From: Planomicrobium okeanokoites
Lineage (GTDB): Bacteria; Bacillota; Bacilli; Bacillales_A; Planococcaceae
Reading direction: 5' to 3'
Assembly: GCF_003428875.1 (NCBI RefSeq)
Contig: NZ_QQRS01000004.1
Coordinates: 62,001 to 126,000 of the forward strand
DNA: 64,000 nt
Shown here: positions 4,671-58,162 of the stretch, in pieces
Numbering within the stretch: position 1 is the first letter of the stretch
How the letters are laid out: every line of letters starts with the position of its first letter
The notes under the pieces: model-generated
Database searches by the model: none
Told to the model about the DNA's origin: nothing
What the model saw: only the letters and a program-made list of their open reading frames with translations
Made by a program: the position numbers and the translations under genes

Positions 4671-4838
4671 AAGAAAAGCGGAAGTGCCTGTTCAGCTCTG
4701 ACGGGTATAAGACGAATCAGTGTAGTGGCGATCTTTGCCACGCAGCTGGTTTGACTTATATCCCGAAGAGCTAGGCACTGGAGACTAGACACAAAGTGGC
4801 TTATGACCCGAAGAGCTGGGCCGCTGGAGTCTGGACAA
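4671..4838 (+). repeat. Family A intergenic element, copy A1 (one full unit plus 3' half unit)
   Basis: Begins 4 nt after the GNAT stop codon, in the same orientation. A full unit (4671-4794) starts AGAAAAGCG and ends GGAGACTAGACA. A second partial unit (4796-4837), beginning at the CTTATGACCCGAAGAGCTGG segment, follows. The unit folds into a long hairpin: GTGCCT pairs with AGGCAC, AGCTCT with AGAGCT, GGGTATAAG with CTTATATCCC (one bulge), and an apical GTGGC with GCCAC. Function unknown. Confidence 0.8.
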
Positions 4839-4841
4839 TGT

Positions 4842-4876
4842 AAAACAGGCACTCTATTTCTAGGGTGCCTGTTTTT
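4842..4876. terminator. Terminator after GNAT gene and element A1
   Basis: Stem AAAACAGGCAC/GTGCCTGTTTT with a 12-nt loop and T-runs on both sides, so it could act in both directions. Confidence 0.8.
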
Positions 4877-4906
4877 TATTATCAATAAAGTGAACCGATT
4901 TCACTT

Positions 4907-5006
4907 TTACTCCCAACTTTGTCCGATTTATTCCCAACTTTTATCGGTTTATTCCCAACTTCTATCGGTTTATTCCCAACTCTCCTGCTTTTATTCCCAA
5001 CTCCGC
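4907..5006. repeat. 21-bp tandem array 1 (five units)
   Basis: Units start at 4907, 4928, 4949, 4970 and 4991, an exact 21-bp period. The conserved core TTATTCCCAACT (reverse complement AGTTGGGAATAA) is followed by 8-9 variable bases. It lies between two terminators (4842-4876 and 5016-5050) in a convergent gap. Because 21 is divisible by 3, it leaves an open frame with repeated YSQLLSV heptapeptides, which is not a credible gene. Confidence 0.85.
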
Positions 5007-5015
5007 CAAAAGGCC

Positions 5016-5050
5016 AAAAAGAGGTTCACCGTAACAGGTGAACCTCTTTT
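5016..5050 (-). terminator. Terminator of arsB
   Basis: Stem AAAAGAGGTTCACC/GGTGAACCTCTTTT with a 6-nt loop, ending 7 nt beyond the arsB stop. A-rich and T-rich sides suggest activity in both directions. Confidence 0.85.
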
Positions 5051-5056
5051 ATTTAT

Positions 5057-6352
5057 TTAGTTCAAGATTGTCAGCCACAAATACAGGCCGGTCAACGTGA
5101 TGAACAATGTCGGAATCGTCAGGATGATCCCGATTTTGAAATAATAACCCCAACTGATGGTGACGCCCTTTGTTTTCAGGACGTGCAGCCATAATAATGT
5201 AGCGAGCGAGCCGATCGGCGTGATTTTCGGACCGAGATCCGAGCCAATGACATTGGCATAGATCAACGCTTCCCGCACGACGCCTGTCGTATTGGTTTCA
5301 GCGATGGCCAACGCATCGATCATGACGGTCGGCATATTATTCATGACTGACGAAAGGATGGCCGCGATAAAGCCCATGCCGATTGTCGCCGCATATAGTC
5401 CGTGCCCCGCCGTCCACTCGATTGCAGTTGCCAAAACCGAAGTCAAGCCGACATTGCGCAACCCATAAACGACTACATACATACCGATCGAGAAGAAAAC
5501 GATCGCCCAAGGCGCACCCTTCAGCACGGTCATCGTCTCGACCGCTTCGCTTCTGCGCGCAATCGCCAGGAAAATGATGGCGACCGCTCCCGCGATGAAC
5601 GAGACCGGAATATCCAACGTTTCACTTGCGAAATACCCGATCAGCAATACCGCCAGAACCACCCAGGACAGACGGAACATTTTCAGATCCTTAATAGCCG
5701 AGGCAGGTGTTTTCAATACACTGGCATCGAATTCTTTCGGAATATCTTTACGGAAATAAAGGTAAAGAACCAGCATGCTGGCCAGGATACTGAACAAGTT
5801 AGGTACAACCATGCGAATCGCATATTCAGTGAATCCGATATTGAAAAAGTCCGCTGAAACGATATTCACCAAGTTACTGATGACAAACGGCAATGATGCC
5901 GTGTCCGCAATAAACCCGGAAGCCATGATGAACGGCAGAATCATCGCATCCTTGAAATTCAAAGCTCTCACCATCGCCAGGACGATCGGCGTCAAAATCA
6001 ATGCCGCTCCGTCATTGGCGAAAAGCGCCGCAACAATGGCGCCAAGAACTGTCACCAGAAAGAACATCCGAAGGCCGCTCCCTTTAGCCAAGCGGGCCAT
6101 ATGTAATGCCGCCCATTCAAAAAACCCGATTTCATCAAGTATTAAAGAGATGATGATCAAAGCGACAAACGTCAATGTCGCATTCCAGACGATGCCGGTC
6201 ACATCCCAGACATCACCAAAATCAACCACTCCGAATAATAATGCTACCACTGCGCCGGCAATCGCCGACCAGCCGATTGACAATCCGCGCGGCTGCCATA
6301 TGACAAAAATTAATGTGACGATAAAGATAAAACTTGCTAATCCAACTTCCAC
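5057..6352 (-). CDS. arsB: Arsenite efflux permease, ArsB family
   Basis: 431 residues with about 11-12 hydrophobic segments, typical of the ArsB branch of the ion transporter superfamily. It exports arsenite or antimonite, driven by membrane potential. Family landmarks include [17 protein letters not shown] near residues 111-127, [18 protein letters not shown] near 155-172, and [16 protein letters not shown] near 335-350 facing the substrate path. The start is GTG at 6352 with AGGAG 11 nt upstream. It follows arsR by 15 nt in one operon. No arsC reductase or arsA ATPase is nearby. Confidence 0.9.
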
Positions 6353-6367
6353 TATCCAAACAACTCC

Positions 6368-6697
6368 TTATTCACAAACTACTTTTTTTCCTTCCGCTTC
6401 CAGAGATTCCACTGTAATTTCCGGCTCAGGCAACAGGCTGAGCAAATGGATCAGCATCGGATAAAGCGCATGACGAACGTTCAGCGACCAAATGGTCCAA
6501 CGCCCCCGCTTTTCTTCAGTCACCAATTCAGCCGTTTTCAACTTGCGCATATGCTGGCTAACCGCCGGCTGCGTCATATCCAGCAATTCCGTAAATTCAC
6601 ATATACAAAGTGAGTCTTTCGACAAGTACTTCAGTATCAGCATCCGATTATGATCGCTGATTGCCTTCAAATAGGATTCCATGTATGAATAATCCAA
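6368..6697 (-). CDS. arsR: ArsR/SmtB family metalloregulator
   Basis: 109 residues, winged helix-turn-helix. The trivalent-arsenic binding motif is present as LCICEF (residues about 32-37, the equivalent of ELCVCDL), followed by the recognition region LLDMTQPAVSQHMRKLKTAELV. It represses arsRB and is released by As(III)/Sb(III). A GTG at 6706 is in frame but touches the Shine-Dalgarno AGAAGG, whereas TTG at 6697 has 8 nt spacing and is preferred. First gene of arsRB, with the operator-promoter directly upstream. Confidence 0.92.
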   Translation of the reverse strand: MDYSYMESYLKAISDHNRMLILKYLSKDSLCICEFTELLDMTQPAVSQHMRKLKTAELVTEEKRGRWTIWSLNVRHALYPMLIHLLSLLPEPEITVESLEAEGKKVVCE

Positions 6698-6730
6698 AGC
6701 ATTCACCTTCTTTCAAGAGTTCCGTCACCC

Positions 6731-6759
6731 ATTATATAAGTGTTTACTTATTTAATCAA
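6731..6759 (-). promoter_or_regulatory. arsRB promoter with ArsR operator palindrome
   Basis: Reading leftward, -35 TTGATT (6754-6759), 17-bp spacer and -10 TATAAT (6731-6736). The spacer holds a perfect inverted repeat, ATAAGT-GTTT-ACTTAT (6736-6751), in the position where ArsR would block RNA polymerase. Confidence 0.8.
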
Positions 6760-6781
6760 GGTAAAATCCAGTGAATTTGCT

Positions 6782-6886
6782 GTTGTTTGTGCGATAGCAG
6801 AGGTTGTTTGCGGGATAATTACCGTTGTTTGCGTTATAGCCTTTGTTGTTTGCGTTATAACCCCGATTGTTTGCGTTAACCCGATT
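6782..6886. repeat. 21-bp tandem array 4 (five units, divergent core)
   Basis: Units start at 6782, 6803, 6824, 6845 and 6866, with exact 21-bp period. Core GTTGTTTGCGTTATA with a variable tail. The core differs from the other three arrays (AGTTGGG-type), but period and layout are the same. It lies between the arsRB promoter and the terminator of the DJ-1/PfpI gene. Confidence 0.85.
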
Positions 6887-12522: not shown

Positions 12523-12847
12523 CCCCGCAACCGGAAATAGATCCGGTTGCGGGGACGGGTTTAAAAAACCGCGGTACCACCACGCATTAATGCATTTCTG
12601 CACTCACTCAAACAGGCTGTTCGCCTTTCCCTTTAACGCAGGGCATACGTCTGCCTTACTCATTTTCATTTTCAGGCCAGCTCTCCTAAGTCCATTCGTG
12701 CAAGAATTCCAATCAGCTCCCACCAGCCGCTGACTCTCTAAATAGAATCCATTGCCTACTCGTCTCAATCCTCGATTTTGCTCTCTGCTATTCTAGTCTT
12801 CTCTGGGCTCTTCTCTCAAATAGACTTGCCGCTCTTCCAACAAGTTG
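12523..12847 (-). ncRNA. T-box leader, tryptophan-specific, of the trp operon
   Basis: Leftward transcript of about 325 nt. The T-box core TGGTACCGCGG (12569-12579) is followed by a strong terminator, stem CCCCGCAACCGGA/TCCGGTTGCGGGG (12523-12555) with T-run. Upstream is a stem I region with AGAGAG, GGTGGGAGC and a specifier loop in which UGG, the Trp codon, is at 12692-12694 (sequence GAA-UGG-A). Uncharged tRNA-Trp should pair with UGG and with UGGN of the T-box, favouring the antiterminator. The specifier is read by position in the loop, not by folding software. Confidence 0.9.
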
Positions 12848-19102: not shown

Positions 19103-20743
19103 CTAATGATTATTTTTTCCGATCATCTTAATGGAAGCAGTCAATTCATTAAATCGCCGGTCCAATCCTTCATACTCCTTGTTCACTGGTGTCATGAAGC
19201 TCAATTTCCCCAATACTTCCTGCCTTTCCCTCTCCAGCTGCATCAAATCCAGCCGCTCCGCAGCACTCTCCCGATCCATCCACTCTGAATAGCCGCCTTC
19301 ATATTTAGACAATGTGCCTCTTTCGAAAACAAGTAATTTATCGCTCAGCTTTTCCATGAAATAGCGGTCATGGGTAGCAATCAGCATAGTCCCCCCAAAA
19401 AAGCTGAGCGCACGCTCCAATTCTTCCCTGGAAGGTAAATCCAAATGGTTCGTAGGTTCGTCCAGCAGCAATACATTACACTCCGACAACATAAATTCCA
19501 TCAGCTTCAGCCTGACGCGTTCGCCCATGCTCATATTCAGAATCGGCTGGTCCCAATGCACTTTTTCGAAACCCAGATGATCCATCAAATTGCGGATCTT
19601 GCCTGTTTCTTCATAACTCGGAGCCCAAAACAGCTCAGAAGGCGTTTTTTCTTCCGGCAAGTCAAAAACATCCTGGCTTAAATAGCCGATTTTCATGCCT
19701 TTGCTCAACCAGACCTCCCCGTCGTGTCCACCACTGCCGAGCATCATTTGAAGGAGGGTCGTTTTCCCGCTGCCATTAGCGCCAAGCAAGCCGACCCGTT
19801 CACCATGCTGTATGGTGAATGTTGCCCGGTCGAACAGCAGTCTGTCTCCATAGCTTTTGCATACATTTTTCAAGGCGATGACTCTGCGTCCTTTCTTCGC
19901 AGCATCATTTATATCAAATGAAATTTGCAATTCGTCCTTCGGCTCAGACACCTGCTCCTGGTCCAGTTCCGCCTGAAGACGCTGTCGTTTGCTGCGGATT
20001 TGAACATCTTTTTTCTTCGCTTTCATTCGGAAATATTCTTTTGCCCCATCTTTTTTCGTTGATTCGGCATGCGCTTTGTCAGACCATGATTGTAATTGAG
20101 CAATCTGGTTTTCCACCTGCGCAATTTTCGCCTGTTGTTTATCGTATTTGCGTTTCTGCGTATGCCGCTGGTGCGCTCTTTCCACTCTGGATGCAGAATA
20201 ATTCCCTTCATACTCAATCAAAACCGCGTCTTCTATTTCCCAGACATGCGTTGCTACCCGGTCGATAAAATGGCGGTCATGTGAAACAAAAATCACTGTT
20301 CCTTCCATTTCTTTAATGCTGTCCGCCAGGGTTTCCAGACTTTCTGCATCCAAATGATTGGTCGGTTCATCCAGCAGATATATATCTCCACTCTGCGCCA
20401 AAGCATTCGCGAGCCTCAGCTTCATAGTTTCCCCGCCACTCAGTTTATGCCGTTCGGCAGGAACACGCCACTTCCTTTCCATCGCCCTTGTTTCCGCATC
20501 CAAATTTGCCTTCTCGACATCTCTGACCTCTTGCTCCATATAAACAATTTCAGGGTCACTTCCCAGCCAATGGACTCCTTGCGCACCTCGCGCTATCGCT
20601 TCAAGAACACTGGTCTTTCCTGAACCGTTTGCTCCGATCACAGCAATTCTTGATTGCTCATGGATAACGGCTTTAGCTTCTTCTACAATCACTCGATCCA
20701 TATAACGGATGGTCAATTTGTTTAATTTGCCTACGATGGCCAT
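19103..20743 (-). CDS. ABC-F protein, antibiotic-resistance (Vga/VmlR-like) type
   Basis: 546 residues, two ABC domains and no membrane spans. Walker A sites GANGSGKTSV (about 36) and GANGSGKTTL (about 320), two signature motifs LSGGE and MSMGE, and two Walker B LLDEPTNHLD are present. An arginine/lysine-rich interdomain linker runs between the domains. These proteins bind the ribosomal E site, and resistance-type members displace antibiotics from the peptidyl-transferase centre. The length equals Bacillus VmlR and the gene has an attenuator leader, as known antibiotic-inducible members do. The open frame extends 27 codons upstream into the attenuator, so ATG at 20743 after AAAGGGAGAG is used. 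Drug spectrum cannot be told. Confidence 0.87.
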   Translation of the reverse strand: MAIVGKLNKLTIRYMDRVIVEEAKAVIHEQSRIAVIGANGSGKTSVLEAIARGAQGVHWLGSDPEIVYMEQEVRDVEKANLDAETRAMERKWRVPAERHKLSGGETMKLRLANALAQSGDIYLLDEPTNHLDAESLETLADSIKEMEGTVIFVSHDRHFIDRVATHVWEIEDAVLIEYEGNYSASRVERAHQRHTQKRKYDKQQAKIAQVENQIAQLQSWSDKAHAESTKKDGAKEYFRMKAKKKDVQIRSKRQRLQAELDQEQVSEPKDELQISFDINDAAKKGRRVIALKNVCKSYGDRLLFDRATFTIQHGERVGLLGANGSGKTTLLQMMLGSGGHDGEVWLSKGMKIGYLSQDVFDLPEEKTPSELFWAPSYEETGKIRNLMDHLGFEKVHWDQPILNMSMGERVRLKLMEFMLSECNVLLLDEPTNHLDLPSREELERALSFFGGTMLIATHDRYFMEKLSDKLLVFERGTLSKYEGGYSEWMDRESAAERLDLMQLERERQEVLGKLSFMTPVNKEYEGLDRRFNELTASIKMIGKNNH

Positions 20744-20773
20744 ATCAATCTCTCCCTTTTCGGAGAAATAAAA

Positions 20774-20922
20774 AATTCCTCCGATTGATTTTCGGAAGAA
20801 TTCGGCAACCCAAATAAACTGCATTAATTCGGATTAAATAAAAATTGGGCAGACGAATCCTATTTCTTTCAAGCTGAAAAAACTTCAGTTGCTCAGAAAA
20901 AGGATTTTATTTCATCGTCCAC
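20774..20922 (-). promoter_or_regulatory. Leader with short ORF and transcription attenuator of the ABC-F gene
   Basis: An intrinsic terminator (stem 20774-20784/20792-20802, one wobble pair, then TTTTTTATTT) stands 31 nt before the ABC-F start codon. Upstream is a GAGGTGA site (20926-20932) with either a two-codon ORF (ATG AAA TAA, from 20915) or a nine-codon ORF starting GTG at 20922. The nine-codon ORF has worse spacing. A second long hairpin covers about 20862-20912. The layout matches ribosome-stalling attenuators of antibiotic-induced ABC-F genes. Confidence 0.7.
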
Positions 20923-20981
20923 CCGTCACCTCGTTTTCATTGATATTGATATTTTACCACTATTCAGAATAATTGCCACCC

Positions 20982-27482: not shown

Positions 27483-27615
27483 CGATATTTCGCAAAACAG
27501 CTTCGAAGACATTAGCCGAAGCTGCGCGAGGCTAAGTCTTTGCGACGAAGCTAGCGCAGCGATGCAGGAGCACGGGGTTTCACCCTACCCTGTCTTCGCT
27601 GTTTTGCTTCATATC
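27483..27615 (+). repeat. Family B intergenic element, copy B2
   Basis: 133 bp with long terminal inverted repeats: GATATTTCGCAAAACAGC plus GAAGACA at left, complement of GATATGAAGCAAAACAGC plus GAAGACA at right. Inner hairpin TTAGCC/GGCTAA and the segment TTTGCGACGAAG followed by AGCGCAGCGATGCAGGAGC, also seen in B3 and in the hybrid at 58034. The rest of the gap 27616-27734 holds nothing I can name. Confidence 0.78.
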
Positions 27616-28154: not shown

Positions 28155-28312
28155 CGATATTCCGCAAAACAGCTGCGAAGACATTAGCCGACGCTTGCGA
28201 GGCTAAGTCTTTGCGACGAAGCAGCGTAGCGATGCAGGCGCAGGGTTTTCGCCTTCGAGCTAACTTACGAATAAACTCCGAGTGGATCTCGCCCTTCGTC
28301 GAAACGGAATAT
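28155..28312 (+). repeat. Family B intergenic element, copy B3 (rearranged right end)
   Basis: Left end CGATATTCCGCAAAACAGC, then GAAGACATTAGCC / GGCTAAGTCTTTGCGACGAAG and the GCGATGCAGG segment shared with B2. The right end lacks the GCTGTTTTGC repeat; instead it carries CCGAGTGGATCTC, the reverse complement of GAGATCCACTCGG from B1. It lies between the monooxygenase start and the siderophore operon terminator. Confidence 0.7.
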
Positions 28313-33324: not shown

Positions 33325-35043
33325 TTGAATTTAAAACATTTTTTCAAGTACTACAAACCGCATAAACGTCTGTTTATCGTCGATTTCACGAGTGCGGTGA
33401 TTGTTGCGATTTTGGAATTGGCTTTTCCGGTAGCCGTCCAATATTTTATCGATGAATTATTGCCGAGCGGTGAATGGAGCACTATCGTTACCGTAAGTAT
33501 TCTTTTGCTGGCCGTATTCCTGCTCAGTACTTTCCTGCAGTATGTCGTCAGCTTTCTCGGACACAAGCTCGGCATCAATATTGAAACCGATATGCGTGAA
33601 GAACTTTTTACTCACGTACAGCGGCAGTCTTTCCGCTTTTTCGACAATATTAAAACCGGCCATATCATGAGCCGCATCACCAATGACTTATTTGATATCG
33701 GCGAACTTGCCCATCATGGTCCCGAAGATTTCTTCATCGCCATCATGACGTTCTTTGGCGCTTTCGGCATCATGTTCTGGATCAATCCGAAATTGGCGCT
33801 TGTTACACTGATTGTAGTGCCATTCCTGATTTGGCTGATCACTTATTGCAACATCAAGATGAATTCGGCATGGAGCAATATGTACGGCAAAATCGCCGAT
33901 GTCAACGGACGGGTGGAAGACAGTGTTTCCGGCGCCCGCGTCGTGCAATCCTTCACCAATGAAGAATTTGAAATCAACCGTTTCAAAAAAGACAACGGCA
34001 GTTTCCGCCTTGCCAAGCTTGTCGCTTATAAAGTGATGGCTGCGACCCATTCCAGCATCTACATGATGACACGTCTTTTGACATTGATCGTCCTGGTTTA
34101 CGGCGCATGGCTGAATTATCAAGGCGAATTAAGCTATGGTGAACTCGTCAGTTTCGTGCTGTTCCTGAATGTACTGATCAAGCCGATCGATAAAATCAGC
34201 GCGCTGCTTGAACTGTATCCGAAAGGAATGGCCGGCTTCAGCCGCTTCCGCGAACTGATTGATCAGGATCCCGATATCGTCGATAAAAAAGGCGCCAAGC
34301 CGATTACAGGTTTGCAGGGCAATATCACTTTCGATAATGTCCATTTCGGCTATGACGAACATAAAAAAGTGCTCAACGGCATCGATTTGAACCTGCGCGC
34401 AGGCGAAACGATCGCTTTTGTAGGCCCATCAGGCGCCGGCAAGACGACCATCTGTTCATTGATCCCGCGCTTTTATGACATCCAGCAAGGCTCGATCGCC
34501 ATTGATGGAATCGATATCCGGGATATGACCAAGCATTCCTTGCGTTCCCATATCGGCATCGTGCAGCAGGACGTTTTCCTGTTCACAGGTACAATCCGCG
34601 AGAATATCGCATACGGCAGACAAGGCGCGAGTGATGAAGAGATTCTTGCCGCGGCCCGCAAAGCCCATCTTGAAGACTTCGTCAATAAATTACCGGAGGG
34701 CTACGAAACCCAGATCGGTGAACGCGGACTGAAATTATCAGGCGGCCAGAAACAACGGCTTGCCATTGCGCGCATGTTCCTGAAAAATCCACCGATCCTG
34801 ATCCTGGACGAAGCGACTTCCGCGCTGGATACGGAAACTGAACGTGTAATCCAACTGGCTCTCTCTGAGCTTGCCGAAAACCGCACCACTTTGATCATCG
34901 CCCATAGACTGGCAACGATACGCGACGCGGACCGTGTCATCGTCGTAACAGAAGACGGCATTGCGGAACAAGGCGGCTACAGCGAACTCCTTGAACACGA
35001 TGGCATCTTTGCGAACCTGCACAGGATCCAGTTTCAGCAATGA
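33325..35043 (+). CDS. ABC transporter, fused permease-ATPase (multidrug/lipid exporter type)
   Basis: 572 residues: six spans (about 1-290), then ABC domain with GPSGAGKTTICSL, KLSGGQKQRLAIARMF and PPILILDEATSALD. Half-transporter that would homodimerise, MsbA/BmrA class and similar in length to Bacillus YwjA. GTG at 33316 abuts AAGAGG, so TTG at 33325 with 6-8 nt spacing is favoured. Substrate unknown. Its stop codon is immediately followed by family A element A2. Confidence 0.9.
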   Translation: MNLKHFFKYYKPHKRLFIVDFTSAVIVAILELAFPVAVQYFIDELLPSGEWSTIVTVSILLLAVFLLSTFLQYVVSFLGHKLGINIETDMREELFTHVQRQSFRFFDNIKTGHIMSRITNDLFDIGELAHHGPEDFFIAIMTFFGAFGIMFWINPKLALVTLIVVPFLIWLITYCNIKMNSAWSNMYGKIADVNGRVEDSVSGARVVQSFTNEEFEINRFKKDNGSFRLAKLVAYKVMAATHSSIYMMTRLLTLIVLVYGAWLNYQGELSYGELVSFVLFLNVLIKPIDKISALLELYPKGMAGFSRFRELIDQDPDIVDKKGAKPITGLQGNITFDNVHFGYDEHKKVLNGIDLNLRAGETIAFVGPSGAGKTTICSLIPRFYDIQQGSIAIDGIDIRDMTKHSLRSHIGIVQQDVFLFTGTIRENIAYGRQGASDEEILAAARKAHLEDFVNKLPEGYETQIGERGLKLSGGQKQRLAIARMFLKNPPILILDEATSALDTETERVIQLALSELAENRTTLIIAHRLATIRDADRVIVVTEDGIAEQGGYSELLEHDGIFANLHRIQFQQ

Positions 35044-35162
35044 AGAAAAGCGACGGCACCCGTTAAGCTCTGAAAGGCATAAGACAGAATAGCGCAGCGG
35101 TCCTGACCGCGCAGCTAGGCTGGCTTATGACCCGAAGAGCTGGGTCGCCGGAGACTGGACAA
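35044..35162 (+). repeat. Family A intergenic element, copy A2
   Basis: 119 bp starting at the base after the ABC exporter stop codon, same orientation. Stems: GGCACCC with GGGTCGCC, AGCTCT with AGAGCT, CATAAG with CTTATG, apical GCGGTC-CT-GACCGC. Ends GGAGACTGGACA. Over most of its length identical to the second unit at 39384-39502. Confidence 0.85.
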
Positions 35163-35179
35163 TGAAGAACAGCGACAGT

Positions 35180-35206
35180 GCGACCGGTCCTTCCGGTCGC
35201 GCTTTT
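35180..35206 (+). terminator. Terminator after ABC exporter and element A2
   Basis: Stem GCGACCGG/CCGGTCGC, 5-nt loop, then GCTTTTTT. Confidence 0.87.
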
Positions 35207-35212
35207 TTGCTG

Positions 35213-35310
35213 GTTGGGCGTATTCCCTTTGAAGTTGGGCGTATTTCGGGTAAAGTTGGGCGTATTTGGACCAGAGTTGGGCGTATTTGGACCAGAGTTG
35301 GGCGTATTTC
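35213..35310. repeat. 21-bp tandem array 2 (five units)
   Basis: Units start at 35213, 35234, 35255, 35276 and 35297. Core GTTGGGCGTATT, variable tail of 8-9 bases, with units 3 and 4 identical. Lies between two facing terminators in a convergent gap next to A2. Repeats translate as KYAQLWS or IRPTLVQ heptapeptides on the minus strand, which are not credible proteins. Confidence 0.87.
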
Positions 35311-35329
35311 AAAAATCAATCAAAACAAA

Positions 35330-35356
35330 AGCAGACTTCCGCGTGCGGAAGCCTGC
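35330..35356 (-). terminator. Terminator of hflX
   Basis: Stem GCAG-ACTTCCG with CGGAAG-CCTGC (one mismatch), A-rich/T-rich flanks giving a T-run leftward. Confidence 0.8.
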
Positions 35357-35366
35357 TTTTTCGTTT

Positions 35367-36638
35367 TCATTTCCCTACAACGAACTCCTGGTAGCGGTCG
35401 TAATCCGCCCGGCTAAGTTCCACCCGCAGCGAAGTGCCTTCTTCTTCATACTCCGTTTCCCGGATGGTGGCTGTCTCGTTCAGGTAGGCGACTACATCAC
35501 CGCGGTCGAATGGAATGACCATCCGGCAAGTCACGTAATCGGCGAAAATGCGCTGTTTGACCATTGCCAGCAGTTCATCAAGGCCCCTATCGTTTTTCGC
35601 CGAAATCCAGAGCCCGTCCCCGTTTGTCCGTGGATGCGGGATACCGGCAAGATCTGATTTATTATAGACATATATCGTTGGTATGTTTTCAACCCCCACT
35701 TCGTGGAGCGTCCGGTTGGTGACATCCATCATGTGGCGATGTTCCTCGTGGGAAACGTCAACGACATGGAGCAGCAAATCGGCATTGCGCGCTTCTTCAA
35801 GCGTCGAACGGAACGCGCGCACCAAGTGATGCGGCAGTTTGCTGACAAACCCTACCGTATCGGTAAGGAGGAAGCTCTTATTATCATTAAGCAAAATCTG
35901 GCGGACAGAAGTTTCCAATGTAGCGAAAAGCATGTCTTTTTCAAATACCTGCTTATCTTCCTGCTGTCCCGCTTTCTTAAGCAATTCATTCATTACAGTA
36001 GATTTCCCGGCATTCGTATAGCCGACAAGCGACACGACCGGCATGCCTTTTTTCGTGCGCTGTTTGCGCTGGGTCACACGCTGGTCTTTGATATGCTCAA
36101 GTTCCTTATGAAGTTTGGAGATCTGGTCTTCAATTTTCCGGCGGTCAAGTTCAAGTTTCGTTTCACCGGCACCGCGGTTCGCGACTCCCCCGCTGCTGCT
36201 GCCGCCTTGGCGGCCAAGCGAAGCGCGAAGTCCGATCAGCCTTGGCATCATGTATTGCAATTGAGCCAATTCCACCTGCACCTGCGCTTCACGTGTTTTC
36301 GCGCGGCGCGAGAAAATATCAAGGATCAGCATGGTGCGGTCGATGACCTTGCATTCCAGATCTTCCTCGAGATTCCGGATTTGGGAAGGAGATAATTCAT
36401 CATTGAATATGATGAGATTCGCTTCAGTTTCCTCATAGAATGCTTTGAGTTCATCGACTTTCCCTTTCCCGACATAATGGGACGGGTTAATACGCTCCAG
36501 GTTTTGGGTAATATCACCGAGCACTTCGACGTTGCAGGCTTCCGCCAGATTTTTCAGTTCATCCATTTCGTAATCGAAATGAGTGTCTTTCTGAAGCTGA
36601 ACACCGACAAGTACCGCTTTTTCAATCAATGTATCCAT
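35367..36638 (-). CDS. hflX: GTPase HflX
   Basis: 423 residues. Ribosome-associated GTPase that splits stalled 70S ribosomes. N-terminal HflX domain with INPSHYVGKGKVDEL, a helical RQGGSSSGGVANRGAGETKLELDRR linker, and G domain with VGYTNAGKST (G1), DTVGF (G3) and NKSD (G4). The frame is open 20 codons further upstream, but ATG at 36638 follows AAGGAG. Monocistronic with terminator. Confidence 0.95.
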   Translation of the reverse strand: MDTLIEKAVLVGVQLQKDTHFDYEMDELKNLAEACNVEVLGDITQNLERINPSHYVGKGKVDELKAFYEETEANLIIFNDELSPSQIRNLEEDLECKVIDRTMLILDIFSRRAKTREAQVQVELAQLQYMMPRLIGLRASLGRQGGSSSGGVANRGAGETKLELDRRKIEDQISKLHKELEHIKDQRVTQRKQRTKKGMPVVSLVGYTNAGKSTVMNELLKKAGQQEDKQVFEKDMLFATLETSVRQILLNDNKSFLLTDTVGFVSKLPHHLVRAFRSTLEEARNADLLLHVVDVSHEEHRHMMDVTNRTLHEVGVENIPTIYVYNKSDLAGIPHPRTNGDGLWISAKNDRGLDELLAMVKQRIFADYVTCRMVIPFDRGDVVAYLNETATIRETEYEEEGTSLRVELSRADYDRYQEFVVGK

Positions 36639-36726
36639 ATGCACATTCTCCTTTACAGCCGCTCTGCGATGCAGATTCTGTTCTTCCCATCTTATCACAT
36701 GAGTCAGGGTCTTTAAATTCAGCCCG

Positions 36727-37431
36727 TTAAACCAGGTAAATTCCTTTTTCGTATACTATCTGTTCTTTACCATTTTGATAATGGACTTCTTCCAGCCGTT
36801 CTTTCTGTCCCGTCCGCTTACGGAATTCTATCAGGCAATTCGCCAATTGCAGGTTGCCACCAAGAAGTTTTTTCCACTTTTTGACCGCTGCCTTTTCATC
36901 ATCCACTCCAAATATACAGCGCTGCAATGTCCGGTTTTCATCTGCCGGGGCAATAGCGCCCACAGCACGCAGTCCCGCGTATCGCTCATCATCCCTTTCA
37001 CTCCATTCAATGAAGAAGGGGTTCGGCAGGCGGTCCGAAAATTCCTCATCGATGAACAGCATTTTCCACTCAATAAGTTTCCCTTCCGTTGTCCGCCGGC
37101 TGCCGTCCAGAATTCCACTTGTCTGAAAGCCTTCTGCCGTTAAGCGCTCTTCCAGGTCTTCAATGGATTCAACGCGGAAACACACGGTGCCAAAACCAGC
37201 TCCATTATGAAGCAATAATTTCGTCAACGGATGGGAGGCGGATTCAGCAATTCGCCGGTTCTCCAGTGACAGCCATTCAATATAACTGTCTTTGCCATAC
37301 CTTAAGGCGTTCCGGGTTCCCCAGTTGTCATGGCGTCCGCCAATTACTGCATGCTGATTTTTTCGTTGCCAAAATTCGACTGCCTGTTCCGGTGTTTCTT
37401 CTATAAAATGTATGACGTGATCAAATTTCAT
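36727..37431 (-). CDS. VOC superfamily protein (glyoxalase-like domain)
   Basis: 234 residues beginning MKFDHVIHFIEETPEQAVEFW, a glyoxalase-like opening with a metal-ligand His. A long insertion (IEWKMLFIDEEFSDRLPNPFFIEWSERDDER) is typical of the glyoxalase-3-like family. A second beta-alpha-beta half follows (LQRCIFGVDDEKAAVKKWKKLLGG). Enzymatic role unknown. ATG at 37431 follows AAGGGAG. Confidence 0.82.
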   Translation of the reverse strand: MKFDHVIHFIEETPEQAVEFWQRKNQHAVIGGRHDNWGTRNALRYGKDSYIEWLSLENRRIAESASHPLTKLLLHNGAGFGTVCFRVESIEDLEERLTAEGFQTSGILDGSRRTTEGKLIEWKMLFIDEEFSDRLPNPFFIEWSERDDERYAGLRAVGAIAPADENRTLQRCIFGVDDEKAAVKKWKKLLGGNLQLANCLIEFRKRTGQKERLEEVHYQNGKEQIVYEKGIYLV

Positions 37432-37558
37432 CGTTTCCACTCCCTTTACGCTGTTACTATAAGCTTTCGCCATGTTCAGTTAAAAACCTTCCGGCTGATT
37501 CCTGTCCATCGATTTGGGCGATATACCACCTTTCTTGCCATATGGGTGGTTTTCAAGC

Positions 37559-37582
37559 GTTATTTTCGATAGGCTGGGGTAT
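37559..37582 (+). promoter_or_regulatory. Possible sigma-B promoter of the BCCT transporter
   Basis: GTTATT-N12-GGGTAT. The -10 is a perfect sigma-B element while the -35 (GTTTAA consensus) matches only in its first half. Stress control of betaine uptake is plausible. Confidence 0.35.
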
Positions 37583-37618
37583 ATAGAAAATATCTTTTCA
37601 TTAACTCAGGAGGTCGAC

Positions 37619-39169
37619 ATGGACAAAAAATTATGGACAAATCCCGTTTTTCTGGTTTCAACAGCCGTGATTCTGTTGCTGGTGGTGCTCGGCGCACTCG
37701 CCAACGAACAATTCCAATCAGTATCCGACACGCTTTTCAACTTTACCACCAATAACTTCGGATGGTTCTACCTGCTTGCTGTATTCATCATTACCCTCTT
37801 CCTCATCTTTATATCCATCAGCAAATACGGCAATATCCGCCTTGGGGCAGATACGGATCGCCCCGAATTTCCCTTTTTCACCTGGATTGGCATGCTGTTT
37901 TCAGCCGGTTTCGGTGCAGGCCTTGTGTTTTGGGGCGTCGCTGAACCGATGAGCCATTTCTTCACCACCCCTTTTGGCAATGAAGCGCAAACGCCGGAAG
38001 CGGCCCGCATCGCAATGGGCTATTCCTTCTTCCACTGGGGCGTCAGCCAGTGGTCCGTGTTCGCCATTGTCGGACTCGTCATCGGCTTTCTGCAGTTCCG
38101 GAAGAAAAAATCCGGATTGGTTTCGACCGCCCTTGAGCCGGTGACCGGTTCAAAACCACTGATCAAGCAATCCATCGATTCCCTGGCCGTCATCGCAACC
38201 GTCATGGGGATTGCCACATCTCTGGGACTCGGTGTCCTGCAGATGAACGGCGGGTTGAACGCCGTCTTCGGCATCGAGAATTCATTCACCATCCAATTGA
38301 TCATCATCGGCGTCATGTTTGCCGCCTATACGCTATCGTCATCGACCGGACTGCATAAAGGCATCGCCTATCTCAGCAATTTGAATCTTGGCCTGGCCCT
38401 CGTGCTGATGGTATTCGTCTTTTTCGCCGGCCCTACTGTGTTCATCATGGAAACCTTCACTCTTGCTTTGGGTGATTACATCACCAACTTCGTGCAGTAC
38501 AGCCTGCGCATGGAACCATACGCGGACGGTGAATGGGTCCGCGGCTGGACCATCTTCTACTGGGCCTGGGCCATCGCCTGGTCGCCGTTTGTCGGCGCCT
38601 TCGTTGCCCGCGTTTCACGCGGGCGCACAATCCGCGAGTTTGTGCTCGGCGTGCTGGTCATTCCGCCAGCCATCGCATGTGTGTGGATCGCCGTCTTCGG
38701 CGGCACCGCTTTGTATTATGATTTGAACAACGGCACAGGAATCGCGGAAGCGGTCAATAACAACCTGACTTCGGCGCTATTCCAGACCTTCAGTGTCTTG
38801 CCACTGACTACGATTATGTCAATTCTCGCGATTCTTTTGATCTTTACATTCCTGGTAACGTCTGCTGACTCCGCCACTTACATCCTGGCGAGCATGACGA
38901 GCCACGGAAGCCTGAATCCGCCAACTGCTTTCAAAATGATCTGGGGCGTATTGATGGCTGCCATTGCAGCAGTCCTTCTTTACTCAGGCGGACTCGAAGC
39001 GCTGCAAACCGCTTCCCTGATTTCGGCCCTGCCGTTCACCGTGCTGCTCCTGCTCATGGTATGGTCGTTCGTGAAGCTGCTACGCGATGAAACACCGCCG
39101 ATCCGCAAATCGGATTTGCGCCAGTTTAAAAAGATGGAACGCGAAGCCCGCAAGGATCAGCGAAAATAA
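37619..39169 (+). CDS. opuD: BCCT family glycine betaine transporter, OpuD-like
   Basis: 516 residues, twelve spans. Sodium-coupled uptake of glycine betaine for osmoprotection. BCCT signature AIAWSPFVGAFVARVSRGRTIREF (about 320-343), substrate-site GAGLVFWGVAEPMSHF, and the aromatic FYWAWAIAW stretch are present. Basic C-terminal tail REARKDQRK. ATG at 37619 follows AGGAGG; the frame is open 35 codons upstream without a site. Length equals Bacillus OpuD. Assignment to betaine rather than choline is by resemblance. Confidence 0.92.
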   Translation: MDKKLWTNPVFLVSTAVILLLVVLGALANEQFQSVSDTLFNFTTNNFGWFYLLAVFIITLFLIFISISKYGNIRLGADTDRPEFPFFTWIGMLFSAGFGAGLVFWGVAEPMSHFFTTPFGNEAQTPEAARIAMGYSFFHWGVSQWSVFAIVGLVIGFLQFRKKKSGLVSTALEPVTGSKPLIKQSIDSLAVIATVMGIATSLGLGVLQMNGGLNAVFGIENSFTIQLIIIGVMFAAYTLSSSTGLHKGIAYLSNLNLGLALVLMVFVFFAGPTVFIMETFTLALGDYITNFVQYSLRMEPYADGEWVRGWTIFYWAWAIAWSPFVGAFVARVSRGRTIREFVLGVLVIPPAIACVWIAVFGGTALYYDLNNGTGIAEAVNNNLTSALFQTFSVLPLTTIMSILAILLIFTFLVTSADSATYILASMTSHGSLNPPTAFKMIWGVLMAAIAAVLLYSGGLEALQTASLISALPFTVLLLLMVWSFVKLLRDETPPIRKSDLRQFKKMEREARKDQRK

Positions 39170-39180
39170 AAGAAATTAAA

Positions 39181-39217
39181 AAAGCTCAACCCTTTCCAAA
39201 CGGAAGGGTTGAGCTTT
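39181..39217 (+). terminator. Terminator of the BCCT gene
   Basis: 14-bp stem AAAGCTCAACCCTT / AAGGGTTGAGCTTT with T-run. Confidence 0.9.
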
Positions 39218-39235
39218 TTTGTGGTCAGATGCGGC

Positions 39236-39502
39236 CCGGCTTAACGGGTGCCGTCGCTTTTCTTTGTCCAGACTCCAACGGCCAACTCCTCGGACTTAAG
39301 CTGCCCTTCCTGTGCGGCAAAAGACGCCGCTTCGGAAGTTCATCTTAAGCCTGTCGGAGCTTAACGGCCGTTTCCGCTTTTCTTTGTCCAGACTCCGGCG
39401 ACCCAGCTCTTCGGGTCATAAGTCAGCCTAGCTGCGCGGTCAAGACCGCTACGATATTCTGCCTTATGCCTTTCAGAGCTTAACGGGTGCCGTCGCTTTT
39501 CT
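39236..39502 (-). repeat. Family A intergenic element, copy A3 (two tandem units plus fragment)
   Basis: Leftward orientation, beginning 2 nt after the putP stop codon. First unit 39384-39502 is nearly identical to A2. Second unit 39263-39383 is diverged but keeps the fold: CGGCC/GGCCG, CTTAAG/CTTAAG and apical GCGGC/GCCGC. A 5' fragment of a third unit covers 39236-39262. Unit length 119-121 bp. The convergent BCCT terminator bounds it on the left. Confidence 0.85.
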
Positions 39503-39504
39503 AA

Positions 39505-41025
39505 TTACTTATCTTCATTGATCAAACGTAAAGTTTCATCGAACTCTGTTTCAATCTCAGGGTTCGGTTTGTAAGTGACAAGACTCACCAACCAGGCAAC
39601 CAATAGACAAAGGATGAATCCTGGAATGATTTCATAGACACTGCCGATGAAATTAGTAGTCGCTGTTGCACCAGCATCTTCTGGAGTCGTACCTACCAAA
39701 TCCCAGATGATGACAGTTGCGGCACCGACGATCATGCCAGCGAGTGCTCCCATGCTCGTGAACTTACGCCAGAATAATGACAACAGGATCAGCGGACCGA
39801 ATGCGGCACCGAAACCTGCCCATGCGTAAGCAACCAGTTCTAAGATGGTTGCATTCTTTTCCCATGCAAGTACAGCAGCTAACAAAGCTACGATCAATAC
39901 ACCCGCACGGCCAAGATTTACTACAACTGTATCTGAAACTTTCTTTTTGAATGCGATTTTATACAAATCTTCTACCAGTGCCGAAGAACTTACAAGCAAT
40001 TGCGAAGATATTGTACTCATAATTGCCGCTAGCACCGCCGCCAACATCAAACCGGCAATTAACGGGTGAAACAGGATCTGTCCAAGCGCGATGAATACCG
40101 CTTCCGGATCCGTCAGTGTAGCACCTGGATTCTGCTGGAAATACGCGATACCGACAAGCGCTGTTGAAACAGCTCCGATCAGGCTCAGAATCATCCAGCC
40201 AATACCGATGCGGCGAGCAACACGGACTTCTTTCAAAGTCTTGATCGCCATAAAACGGACGATGATGTGGGGCTGTCCAAATTAACCAAGTCCCCATGCT
40301 ACAGCTGAAATGACACCGACAACTGATACACCGGTAGTGAAGTTAAGCAAAGTCGGATCTACAGCACGAATGCTGTCTGCAGTCCCTTCAAAACCGCCAG
40401 TCGAAAAAATTCCGATGGACGGGATTGCGATCAATGCCAGGAACATCATGATTCCCTGGACAAAGTCAGTATAACTGACGGCAAGAAATCCGCCGAATAA
40501 TGTATAAGCTACAACTACTGCGGCTACGATGACCATCCCAAGCTGATAGCTCAGCCCGAATGAACTTTCGAAGAATACGCCTCCTGCAACCATACCTGAA
40601 GATACATAGAAAGTGAAAAATATCAAAATGATTATGCCTGAAACGATTCTTAATAATCTCGAAGAATCTCTTAACCTGTTTTCCAAAAAGCTTGGAATGG
40701 TAATGGAATCTTTTGTTACAAGCGAATAAATACGTAAACGTGGTGCTACGAAATACCAGTTCAAATAGGCTCCGACCGTTAAACCGATCGCTATCCAAAC
40801 TTCCACTAGGCCTCCGACGTAAATGGCACCCGGAAGACCGAGCAACAACCATCCCGACATATCGGATGCTCCTGCACTGAGTGCGGCTACGGCAGGTCCA
40901 AGACCCCGGCCACCCAGCATGTAATCTGACAAATTGACGGTTTTACGATAAGCATACCATCCGATGAACAACATAGCGATGAGGTAAATAATTAGCGCTA
41001 TGATTTGATAAGTTAAATCTGACAT
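39505..41025 (-). pseudogene. putP: Sodium/proline symporter with an in-frame stop codon
   Basis: Full coding span of 506 codons for a PutP-type SSS family symporter (VNLSDYMLGGRGLGPAVAALSAGASDMSGWLLLGLPGA is diagnostic). Codon 248 is TAA (40282-40284) in the sequence WGLG-stop-FGQPHIIVRFMAI, where family members have Tyr. The frame is otherwise intact on both sides with no other damage, so this is one point mutation (TAC/TAT to TAA) or a sequencing error. The upstream piece would have about six spans and be inactive. Start ATG at 41025 follows AAGGGGGAGATAAG. Confidence 0.9.
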
Positions 41026-41084
41026 CTTATCTCCCCCTTCCACACCATTGTAACATCCTGAGTCTTTAATACCAGTAAATTTTT

Positions 41085-55126: not shown

Positions 55127-55127
55127 G

Positions 55128-55487
55128 ATGGGGCTCGATTTTGAAAAAGACAAACCGATCTACCAGCAGCTGATCGACCGTCTGTCAGGCGATATCATCC
55201 GTCGCGTAAGAAAACCCGGCGATAAACTCCCTTCTGTGCGGGAATATGCAATCGACGTCGGCGTCAACGCCAATACCGTGCAACGCGTATACAAGGAGAT
55301 GGAATCGATGGAACTTATAGAAACCAGGCGCGGCCAAGGGTCATTCATAACTGAAAATGAAGAGCGCCTGCAGCTGCTGCGCGACAGTAAAAAAGAGGAT
55401 TTGGTCAAATCGTTCATAGCCAATGTGGAAGCCTACGGTTTTTCGAAAGATGAAATCGTGGAACTCGTCAGGAGGGAAATAAAATGA
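55128..55487 (+). CDS. GntR family regulator, YtrA subfamily
   Basis: 119 residues. Starts DFEKDKPIYQQLIDRLSGDIIRR, wHTH with PGDKLPSVREYAIDVGVNANTVQRVYKEMESMELIETRRGQGSFI. Short C-terminal tail instead of an effector domain, the mark of YtrA regulators that control adjacent ABC transporters. Starts 1 nt after the upstream stop and overlaps the next gene by ATGA. Confidence 0.92.
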   Translation: MGLDFEKDKPIYQQLIDRLSGDIIRRVRKPGDKLPSVREYAIDVGVNANTVQRVYKEMESMELIETRRGQGSFITENEERLQLLRDSKKEDLVKSFIANVEAYGFSKDEIVELVRREIK

Positions 55488-56188
55488 TTGAACTGAACAA
55501 TGTAAAAAAAGCGTACGGATCCACCAAAGCCCTGAACGGCATCAATCTGCGCCTTGAACCAGGAAAGATCATCGGCATTGCCGGTGAAAACGGCAGCGGT
55601 AAGTCGAGTCTGCTGAAAGCAATCGCAGGTGTCAGCAAAATCAGCAGCGGCTCTGTTTTAATTGACGGAAAGCCGGTCTCCCGAAAGGATGCGGCACGAA
55701 TCGCCTATCTCCCTGACGCCGATATGTTCTATTCTTATTTTACCGTCGGGCAATTGTTCTCCTATTATAAGAGCCAGTTCGCCGATTTCAATGAAACGAA
55801 GGCGAAGGAAGTATTGGATTTTTTGGAAGTTCCGCTTTCTTCGAAAATGAAGAACCTGTCCAAAGGAATGCGCGGACGGGCAAAAATGGCTGCAACTTTA
55901 GGACGTGAAAGCCGTTATTATTTAATGGACGAACCTTTCTCCGGACTTGACCCGATGGTGCGAAGCGATTTGATCAAAGGACTGATCCGATTTACAGACC
56001 TCGAGCGCCAGACCCTAATCTTGTCGACGCATGAAATACGCGAAGTCGAAACTTTGCTCGATGAATTGGTTTTATTGAAAAACGGCAAGGTTCTGGCACA
56101 CAGGCATTTGGATGAAATCCGCGGAGAAACGGGAATGGATACAGTGGAATGGATGACAAAAGAGACGAAAGCAGGTGCGGCTGGATGA
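55484..56188 (+). CDS. ABC transporter ATP-binding protein
   Basis: 234 residues. Walker A AGENGSGKSSLLKA, signature LSKGMRGRAKMAATL, Walker B RYYLMDEPFSGLDP. Type YtrB ATPase of ABC-2 exporters. ATGA overlaps with both neighbours. Likely pairs with the membrane protein at 54362. Confidence 0.92.
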   Translation: MIELNNVKKAYGSTKALNGINLRLEPGKIIGIAGENGSGKSSLLKAIAGVSKISSGSVLIDGKPVSRKDAARIAYLPDADMFYSYFTVGQLFSYYKSQFADFNETKAKEVLDFLEVPLSSKMKNLSKGMRGRAKMAATLGRESRYYLMDEPFSGLDPMVRSDLIKGLIRFTDLERQTLILSTHEIREVETLLDELVLLKNGKVLAHRHLDEIRGETGMDTVEWMTKETKAGAAG

Positions 56189-57108
56189 ATGAACAAGCAT
56201 TGGTGCAGATAAAAAATCTGTCAAAGACAATCGGCAGCAAGAGGATCATCAAGAACTTGAATCTCGATTTGTACAAAGGCCAGATCACGGGATTTCTGGG
56301 CCCGAACGGAGCAGGTAAAACGACGACGATCCGGATGATGGTCGGACTGATGAAACCGTCTGAAGGCGACGTGCTTATCGACGGAAAATCAGTGAAGCAC
56401 AATTTTGAAGAGAGCATCGAAAAAGTCGGCGTGATCGTCGAAAACCCGGAAATGTATAAATATATGTCCGGTTATAAGAACCTGCTCCATTTTTCAAGAA
56501 TGCATAAAGGCATTTCAAAAAAACGGATTGATGAAGTGGTCCACCAGGTCGGCATGAAAAACCGCATCAATGAAAAAGTCGGTTCGTATTCACTCGGCAT
56601 GCGGCAGCGCCTCGGTTTGGCACAAGCCCTCCTGCATGACCCGAAATTCCTGATTCTCGATGAACCCACCAACGGACTCGATCCGGCCGGCATCCGGGAA
56701 TTCCGTTTATATCTGCAGAAAATTGCACGTGAGAACGGCGTGGCTGTTTTTGTTTCCAGCCATTTATTGTCGGAAATCGAATTACTGTGCGACCGGATCG
56801 CCATTATCCAAAATGGTGAGTTGATCGACATCAAAAACGTAAAAGAGCTTCAGCAGTCCCGCTTCCTCTTTAAAGTTGAACCTTTGGCTGAAGCGGAAGA
56901 AATACTGACCGGCATCGGTTTTCCGGTTTCCCAATTCGAAGGTGGATTATTGGTCGAAACAGAGGCGGAACATGTTCCCGGGGCAGTGAAAATCCTCGTG
57001 AATGCGAACATTTCAATATTTGCGGTCCAGCCTTTCAAGGCGACTTTGGAAGATCAATTCCTTGAAATGACAGGAGGTGGAGACATTGCTCAAGCTCACT
57101 CAAAATGA
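56185..57108 (+). CDS. ABC transporter ATP-binding protein, BcrA/lantibiotic-immunity type
   Basis: 307 residues. Walker A GPNGAGKTTTIRM, signature YSLGMRQRLGLAQAL, Walker B FLILDEPTNGLDP. C-terminal ALEEVFLEMTG-like tail (LEDQFLEMTGG) seen in BcrA/NatA proteins. Overlaps the permease gene by 23 nt. Substrate may be a peptide antibiotic, by family analogy only. Confidence 0.92.
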   Translation: MNEQALVQIKNLSKTIGSKRIIKNLNLDLYKGQITGFLGPNGAGKTTTIRMMVGLMKPSEGDVLIDGKSVKHNFEESIEKVGVIVENPEMYKYMSGYKNLLHFSRMHKGISKKRIDEVVHQVGMKNRINEKVGSYSLGMRQRLGLAQALLHDPKFLILDEPTNGLDPAGIREFRLYLQKIARENGVAVFVSSHLLSEIELLCDRIAIIQNGELIDIKNVKELQQSRFLFKVEPLAEAEEILTGIGFPVSQFEGGLLVETEAEHVPGAVKILVNANISIFAVQPFKATLEDQFLEMTGGGDIAQAHSK

Positions 57109-58030
57109 ATGGATGAAATTATGGAGCCGTAAATCCTCCTGGATCATGATCATCCTATTGGCCCTCATCCTGCTGGCATCTGCCGCCATCACCAAATGGG
57201 TCGATAACTCGATGGATATGAACAACACAGAAAGCTGGCAGGAAGTAGAAACCAATGAAATGATATACAACCAAAGCATGCTGGAAGACAACAGCCTGAG
57301 CGAGGCGCAGCGCGAGTTTTACGAAGGTGAAGTGGCCATTTCCGAGCACCGCCTCGAGAACGATCTGCCTCCGTATGAATACGACAGCATGCAGCAGGGC
57401 GTCATCGACTCGCATATCATGATGTCAGTTGTCACTTTGTTCACTGTCATCATCGCCGGCGGCATTGTCGCTGCGGAATTTTCGCAAGGCACCATCAAGA
57501 TGCTCTTGACGCGCCCGGTAAAACGCTGGAAGATTCTGACCTCAAAATATATCGCCACGATGCTTTATGCGATTCTGCTGGCGATAGTTTTATTTATCGT
57601 CACCGCCATCGCCGGATTGATCTTTTATGGCATCAGCGACGGGACATTCCTGACGTGGAACGGTTCTGAAGTTGTTGAAGGGTCGTTCTGGCTGGAAGGA
57701 CTGAAATTGCTTGCACTCAGTTTTGCGAGCGTCTGGATCATCGGCACATTCGCCTTTATGCTGGGCACTGTATTCCGCTCCAGCTCGCTTGCTATCGGCT
57801 TGTCGATCTTCCTGATGTTCACGGGAATCCAGGCAGTATTCCTGCTGGCAAATTACGAAATCGTCAAATACTACCTCTTCACCCATACTGACCTGACGCA
57901 ATATTATACTGGCTTCATGCCGGTTGAAGATATTACGATGACGATGTCGGTGATTGTGCTGATTGTGTATTTCATCATTTTCATGGCGATCAGCTACCTG
58001 ACGTTCAGCAAACGGGATGTTACAGCTTAA
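57086..58030 (+). CDS. ABC-2 type permease
   Basis: 314 residues. N-terminal span (WIMIILLALILLASAAI), an extracellular domain of about 80 residues, then five more spans, as in BcrB/YxlG permeases. GTG at 57077 abuts AGGAGG, so TTG at 57086 with 8 nt spacing is preferred. Its stop is followed 3 nt later by the hybrid element A4. Confidence 0.88.
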   Translation: MLKLTQNEWMKLWSRKSSWIMIILLALILLASAAITKWVDNSMDMNNTESWQEVETNEMIYNQSMLEDNSLSEAQREFYEGEVAISEHRLENDLPPYEYDSMQQGVIDSHIMMSVVTLFTVIIAGGIVAAEFSQGTIKMLLTRPVKRWKILTSKYIATMLYAILLAIVLFIVTAIAGLIFYGISDGTFLTWNGSEVVEGSFWLEGLKLLALSFASVWIIGTFAFMLGTVFRSSSLAIGLSIFLMFTGIQAVFLLANYEIVKYYLFTHTDLTQYYTGFMPVEDITMTMSVIVLIVYFIIFMAISYLTFSKRDVTA

Positions 58031-58033
58031 TAT

Positions 58034-58162
58034 AGAAAAGCGGCAGCGAAGAGATGGCCCAGATTTTTGGGTCCATCTCTTTGCGACGAAGCAGCGCAGC
58101 GATGCAGGAGCAGCCTTTGGCTGGCTTATGACCCGAAGAGCTGGGCCGCTGGAGTCTGGACA
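58034..58162 (+). repeat. Family A element A4, hybrid with family B core
   Basis: Outer parts are family A (AGAAAAGCGGC at 5', CTTATGACCCGAAGAGCTGG and GGAGTCTGGACA at 3'). The middle is family B (TTTGCGACGAAGCAGC, GCGATGCAGGAGC) with a separate hairpin AGAGATGG / CCATCTCT. The outer stem AGCGGC/GCCGCT is kept. Starts 3 nt after the permease stop in the same orientation. Confidence 0.82.

Follow-up and report, generated by a model that had tools for sequence, protein, structure and literature searches.

Introduction

Several families of small repeats have been described from the spaces between bacterial genes, and they form the background for the hairpin repeat analyzed here, which we encountered in a 64,000-nt stretch of the Planomicrobium okeanokoites genome (contig NZ_QQRS01000004.1, positions 62,001 to 126,000 of the forward strand), hereafter called the window. 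One of them is ERIC of enterobacteria, which we take to be the same as RU-1 and which uses TA targets. In the account cited here, RU-1 measures 127 bp, is intergenic, resembles a miniature inverted-repeat transposable element (MITE) and forms a single long stem-loop, and Bhal-1 of Bacillus halodurans is given as a 74-bp intergenic stem-loop family with 36 copies (PMC2267715). The BOX repeats of Streptococcus pneumoniae are portrayed as small and intergenic, with a predicted RNA fold, MITE traits and variable numbers of tandem modules, and as being clustered with and inserted into other repeats (PMC3049150, PMC10969869). According to one of these sources, BOX overlaps 58 coding sequences and provides the stop codon of 36 of them, at the extreme 3' end and without strong evidence for truncation, while SPRITE was suggested to be a terminator captured as a repeat (PMC3049150). 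Within the Bacillus cereus group, bcr1–bcr18 are reported as intergenic repeats of 100–400 bp, about half of them transcribed and often located in untranslated regions (UTRs), with bcr1–3 being MITE-like (PMC3446304, PMC6542083). MIRU of mycobacteria, finally, are described as apparently mobile tandem units which sit at gene boundaries and spare the gene (PMC12548453, PMC2734929).

Results

The repeat unit, AGAAAAGCG...GGAGTCTGGACA, spans 117–123 nt (30 copies) and forms a single long hairpin broken by loops. All five window copies were more stable than the mean of their shuffled counterparts (z -3.0 to -6.2); 2 of 200 shuffles were as stable as the copy at 58034, and none were for the other four. 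A covariance model, R1, was built from 31 copies aligned by sequence (alignment A4), with the chimeric copy at 58034 left out. In this alignment 98.3% of the cells are paired and 17 of 36 pairs show double-sided changes, while none of 500 shuffles attained the observed level on any of the five measures used. The compensatory variation of the stems, which the first-pass annotation of the window had noted, is thus borne out. Among 109 further copies, obtained from 69 named loci searched and stemming mostly from Bacillaceae, 94.8% of the cells are paired, 34 of 36 pairs carry double changes and the covariation score amounts to 0.623 versus 0.169 after shuffling and at most 0.085 when slid; this alignment was fitted to the model and leans towards it, and common ancestry inflates its covariation counts. 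The flanking motifs AGAAAAGCG and GGAG.CT.GACA are largely invariant in the host-genome copies; the copies of the named genomes had been selected by means of these motifs, which therefore do not count as independently conserved in them. Loops and bulges of an asymmetric kind persist. Selection for the hairpin is supported by these results.

The element is not confined to its host. All 46 genomes of the genus contain it, as do 136 of 200 genomes and 11 of 17 genera of an order sample, and at least 56 of 398 genomes and 31 of 145 genera of a class sample; 29 of these 56 lie outside Planococcaceae, and the class figures are lower bounds given that nine candidates were scored per genome. A pattern scan of named genomes yielded at least 119 stretches, 80 of which are listed, from genera including Planococcus, Sporosarcina, Psychrobacillus, Rossellomorea, Cytobacillus, Mesobacillus, Neobacillus, Metabacillus and Anoxybacillus (L272, a gammaproteobacterial contig, was left out as a chance match). 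The family spans Bacillaceae sensu lato and Planococcaceae.

In the 3.3-Mb host genome we detected 72 matches at E up to 0.01, of which 59 were strong, and two more with an enlarged middle. The 59 strong copies and the chimera at 58034 make up 45 loci, 13 of them arrays of 2–3 units; an extra locus outside this count, C9:14462-14670, follows the apparent TAA of a short open reading frame (ORF) missed by the gene caller. At 31 of the 45 loci the element has its 5' end next to the stop codon of a co-directional gene, at a distance of -1 to 8 nt (0–8 nt in 28 of them; mode 3), 2 loci are sense but distant and 12 are antisense to both neighbors. For the two loci at which the unit is nested in another one (C12:9824 and C23:27936) the distance is that of the inner unit. 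Upstream of five of the 31, the simple gene caller used predicted a short ORF of 61–86 aa, so that 26 of the 45 loci rest on genes longer than 100 aa. As background, 1,864 of 76,404 non-coding strand-positions of the same stretches (2.4%) lie 0–8 nt past a sense stop codon. Where element and stop codon are no more than 8 nt apart, the 5' end rather than the 3' end of the element faces the stop codon, in a ratio of 31:1. Orientation and distance are therefore not randomly spread over the genome. The claim that copies always run in the sense of the upstream gene holds for the window and fails genome-wide, given the 12 antisense loci.

Among the matches listed from named genomes, 66 first-in-array units could be scored (79 of the 80 loci), 31 being sense and 35 antisense to the upstream gene. 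Twenty-four of the 31 sense units lie within -2 to 5 nt of the stop codon, with a mode of -1, and in 15 of these 24 the first A or AG of the element completes the stop codon itself. A spacing of -1 or -2 thus occurs in 15 of 31 sense first units here and at 3 of 33 sense loci of the host, one of which (C4:8986) comes after the remnant of another unit.

A terminator-like hairpin follows within 130 nt downstream of 23 of the 31 stop-adjacent host copies and precedes 1 of 31, compared to 58 of 420 random non-coding starts. These counts derive from a relaxed scan; a stricter one, requiring A- and T-runs on both sides, retained 13 of the 31 stop-adjacent copies and none of the 12 antisense ones. 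The idea that the 3' end of every copy is aimed at a terminator fits the stop-adjacent copies and was rejected, as a terminator was detected for only 4 of the 12 antisense ones.

Comparison of orthologous loci within the genus revealed that genes carrying the element in some genomes lack it in others. Among the orthologous loci shown, it is present in 6 of 30 at the ABC exporter, in 4 of 30 (including derivatives) at the symporter, in 2 of 20 at C9:5786 and in 4 of 19 at C12:164800; within the syntenic 64 kb, presence and absence at sites A, B and E agree with the other orthologous loci. In G026, the nearest element-free genome at the ABC exporter, the stop codon is separated by 20 nt from a terminator, the counterpart of which also lies past the element in the filled genomes. 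The codons ahead of the stop codon agree between filled and empty sites at the ABC exporter (G000/G026), site B (G000/G029), site E (G000/G010) and C12:164800 (G000/G003). At the sense sites compared, insertion took place between the stop codon and a retained native terminator, with the 5' end of the element at the stop codon.

Copies also occur within and behind each other. Several loci carry head-to-tail arrays with units 1–4 nt apart, and at several loci units are nested at the corresponding point inside the apical stem of others (C12:9824, C23:27936, C12:164800 in G010 and G029, and C1:582722 in G029), as if the nested composite itself had spread. Nesting was read by eye, and a strict pattern caught two of these loci. 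Together with the presence/absence at orthologous sites, tandem and nested copies support the earlier suggestion of a mobile element that targets gene ends. One array, seven hairpin units with 124-nt spacing and equal or near-equal scores, is located at G003:C1:623152-624017 and might serve as a typing marker.

Which strand folds can be read from the mispairs. A cruciform, in which both strands fold alike, would leave G.T and A.C mispairs equally common on the element strand. The observed ratios of G.T to A.C on this strand were 35:4 in the sequence-only alignment A4, 122:25 in A5 and 77:15 in A6, whereby A6 includes most A4 copies and both A5 and A6 were fitted to a G.U-favouring model. The fold of the element's own top strand is constrained, as RNA or as single-stranded DNA. 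Copies antisense to both neighbors show 45:18 (binomial p 0.0009, cells treated as independent), so the strand fold matters beyond host transcription from the upstream gene; this is a strict recount of a looser split, 63:22, of named copies antisense to the upstream neighbor only. Stop-adjacent sense copies gave 94:16, which differs from the antisense ratio with a Fisher p of 0.03, the cells not being independent. The asymmetry points mainly to selection on the element's own propagation, and since the excess is weaker in antisense copies there is room for an added effect in host mRNA.

Some copies extend beyond the hairpin by a linker and a tail, AAAnTTATACTTTCTT, which runs into an A-rich stretch ahead of the terminator, bringing the element from about 120 nt to about 170 nt. 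The linker comprises 34–35 nt in the genus copies listed and 9–34 nt among those listed from the scan of named genomes. A fuzzy pattern for the tail, itself derived from the 80 named loci listed, matched 11 times in these loci, in 10 cases behind a hairpin, and across the 46 genus genomes all 8 exact matches to the genus form directly follow a hairpin or a hairpin remnant. Inspected by eye, tail-bearing copies have a left end AAGAAA and, inverted, a right end TTTCTT. TA precedes 27 of 54 Bacillaceae first units among the matches listed and accounts for 5.8% of the dinucleotides there, coding sequence included. Judged from sequence, the inverted ends and the preceding TA are suggestive of MITE-like ends. 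With regard to a possible target-site duplication, CAATAA stands at C12:164800 ahead of the element in G010 and CCAATAA behind the tail in G000, G039 and G029, the empty sites having diverged.

Within the window, the element follows four genes that are unrelated to each other (Table 1); Pfam assigned them to GNAT, ABC exporter, sodium:solute symporter (SSF) and ABC-2 permease, in agreement with the first-pass annotation, SSF being putP-like. That annotation had recognized four loci of one family starting 0–4 nt past stop codons. Docking at the stop codon stands, though the gaps to AGAAAAGCG are 5, 0, 2 and 3 nt; the loci at 4672, 35044 and 39502 belong to the family, as does a second tandem unit, whereas the copy at 58034 is a chimera. 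Furthermore, the window contains partial copies at 4792-4837 and 39239-39263, the first of which is probably the remnant of an outer unit, and the unit as delimited by that annotation does not include the 3' tail present in some copies elsewhere.

Table 1. Copies of the hairpin repeat and adjoining features in the window (coordinates refer to the window)
Feature	Coordinates	Strand	Remarks
Hairpin unit	4672..4791	+	5 nt past GNAT stop codon; 124 bits (cmsearch); fold z -6.2; absent in G029, G003
3' half of second unit	4792..4837	+	Query positions 78-127 at 90%
Hairpin unit	35044..35161	+	0 nt past ABC exporter stop codon; 138 bits; absent in G026
AGAACAGCG remnant, then native intrinsic terminator	35162..35208	+	Terminator counterpart in element-free G026
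Native intrinsic terminator downstream of array	39180..39219	-	Same terminator in element-free orthologues
25-nt 5' fragment of third unit, array end	39239..39263	-	100% match
Second unit of tandem array	39265..39383	-	115 bits
Hairpin unit	39385..39502	-	2 nt past SSF (putP-like) stop codon; 132 bits; absent in G003, G026, G029
Chimeric copy	58034..58162	+	3 nt past ABC-2 permease stop codon; 22.7 bits; absent in G010, G039

The low score of the chimera results from its 5' half, which belongs to another repeat module (also at 28208-28248), while its 3' half is of the hairpin family. This second module, TCTTTGCGACGAAGCAGCG.AGCGATGCAGG, occurs in the window at 28155-28250, 27483-27523 and, fused to the hairpin family, at 58034-58118; in G024, G025, G030 and G032, pieces resembling it lie past the stop codon of the ABC exporter orthologue. 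Differing 21-nt tandem repeats were noticed at 4906-5010, 6777-6860, 35212-35335 and 58254-58335, three of them just past the terminators of hairpin-bearing genes, and other versions (GTTGCTCGTAT...) accompany ABC exporter orthologues in G004, G007 and G013. The SSF symporter gene (39505-41043, minus strand) is split by one in-frame stop codon, and most orthologues shown have one frame of about 500–590 codons.

None of the 4227 families of Rfam 15 matched the element above the gathering cut-off anywhere in the window, and the three chance-level matches (up to E 5) within 34000-40000 did not fall on a unit; the statement that no named RNA family fits thus holds for this database. Elsewhere in the window, Rfam identified a T-box leader at 12548-12781 (minus strand, 107.5 bits) and ncr1575 at 20769-20947 (minus strand, 84.7 bits), the latter overlapping the 5' end of the ORF at 19103-20824. 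No description of the hairpin family was found in the titles and abstract starts of open-licence papers (among the matches listed), and element sequence strings gave one match in such papers, in a Drosophila neuroscience article.

Discussion

The fold of the repeat, its docking at stop codons and its presence or absence at orthologous loci are well supported. We consider it probable, albeit far from settled, that the repeat is a non-autonomous MITE-like mobile element of Bacillales: it is short, non-coding, multi-copy and dispersed, and orthologous sites exist with and without it. A transposase acting in trans would recognize the top strand in its folded form, be it RNA or single-stranded DNA, and insertion would take place at AT-rich, often TA-containing sites, where the left end (TA followed by AG..., or T followed by AG...) might complete TAA or TAG. 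Landing past the stop codon would spare protein and terminator, and stop-adjacent copies would survive because both are left intact. The host mRNA would thereby gain a 3'-UTR hairpin, any effect on stability being secondary.

Several observations weigh against a MITE-like element. No transposase or autonomous partner was found in a search that covered Y1_Tnp only. No clean target-site duplication could be defined, the empty sites stemming from other species and being roughly 80–90% identical; any terminal inverted repeats would be very short (AAGAAA), and many copies are devoid of the tail. The wobble asymmetry is weaker in antisense copies, and a terminator was detected within 130 nt downstream of only 4 of these 12. 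Finally, the element docks more closely (modal distance 3 nt in the host, -1 in the named set) than would be expected if all positions ahead of the terminator were equally acceptable, and active targeting or a function at the mRNA level could explain this better than tolerance alone.

One might speculate that the element spreads via a structured RNA copy of its own strand, which is integrated at gene 3' ends beside stop codon and terminator; it would then be a minimal mobile RNA hairpin, distributed class-wide, of Bacillales, and gene-end docking would be a targeting rule instead of a by-product of selection, but we regard this scenario as improbable. A stronger, still rather unlikely candidate is a host-functional RNA element of the 3' UTR, selected per locus, that protects the transcript against 3' exonucleases or else brings in RNase III or an RNA-binding protein. 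Sense orientation and a spacing of -1 to 8 nt at 31 of 45 loci would suit such a role, as would covariation with conserved unpaired bases and the greater G.T excess in sense (94:16) than antisense copies (45:18; Fisher p 0.03, cells not independent). Furthermore, the portion of the bcr literature cited here links co-transcription with bcr3 repeats to longer mRNA half-lives of B. cereus genes (PMC3446304). However, 12 of 45 host loci are antisense to both neighbors and yet asymmetric, the asymmetry is likewise seen although 35 of the 66 named first units listed are antisense to the upstream gene, most orthologous genes shown lack the element (filled 6/30, 4/30, 2/20 and 4/19) and the four genes of the window are unrelated.

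The remaining explanations appear remote. Single-stranded hairpins with strand asymmetry suit the chemistry of Y1 enzymes, and 29 of the 46 genus genomes possess Y1_Tnp genes, often a single one encoding about 200 aa; both would be in line with mobilization by an IS200/IS605-like or RAYT (Y1_Tnp) enzyme, as for REPs. We nevertheless rejected this origin as very improbable, since Y1_Tnp matches are absent from the host genome and from G039, both of which contain many copies, and only 1 of 30 loci examined (of 39 matches) has an element within 1.5 kb of Y1_Tnp. Long inverted repeats in general undergo template switching between their arms, and such quasi-palindrome correction could produce compensatory changes without structural selection. 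However, asymmetric loops and bulges persist, and copying between arms should be symmetric whereas G.T far exceeds A.C; we give it hardly any weight. Equally improbable is the view that the element is a transcription terminator that has become a repeat, an origin suggested for SPRITE (PMC3049150). The location at 3' ends and the strong hairpin speak for it, but the unit ends in GGACA followed mostly by A-rich sequence, not a T-run, and native terminators are retained downstream. The element was thus rejected as an intrinsic terminator.

The 3' tail, the orthologous empty sites, the distribution over Bacillaceae sensu lato and Planococcaceae, the G.T excess and the stop codon ends supplied by the element are newly described here. 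The hairpin family would represent a structured repeat of very wide distribution in Bacillales that lacks an Rfam model, and such a model would improve the annotation of many genomes. Behind unrelated genes, its copies amount to a natural series of hairpins in 3' UTRs, and the wobble asymmetry offers a sequence-only test for the strand on which a mobile hairpin works.

As judged from descriptions, the hairpin family resembles pneumococcal BOX in location, ERIC in shape and MIRU in its safe docking. With ERIC/RU-1 it would share size, MITE-like character, intergenic location and a single long stem-loop, as far as the available description goes, while the hosts differ; we know of no stop-codon docking by ERIC. 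By its description, bcr1 is set apart through its restriction to the B. cereus group and its TTTAT motif, the hairpin family being present in many other genera. Bhal-1, known to us by description, may be part of the hairpin family. The likeness to BOX would consist in small intergenic structured repeats, tandem units and a stop codon supplied by the repeat in some copies. However, BOX is built as boxA-(boxB)n-boxC, in which boxB hardly interacts with the fold formed by boxA and boxC, whereas here each tandem unit is a full hairpin plus, in some copies, a short tail; the hosts differ too, and the cited part of the BOX account reports no orientation lock to the upstream gene (PMC3049150). MIRU, according to the descriptions cited, insert at start codons and carry an ORF coupled to the next gene, in contrast to the hairpin family, which is structured and docks past stop codons. 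Taken together with BOX and MIRU, the hairpin family suggests that small mobile repeats can settle exactly at the boundaries of reading frames.

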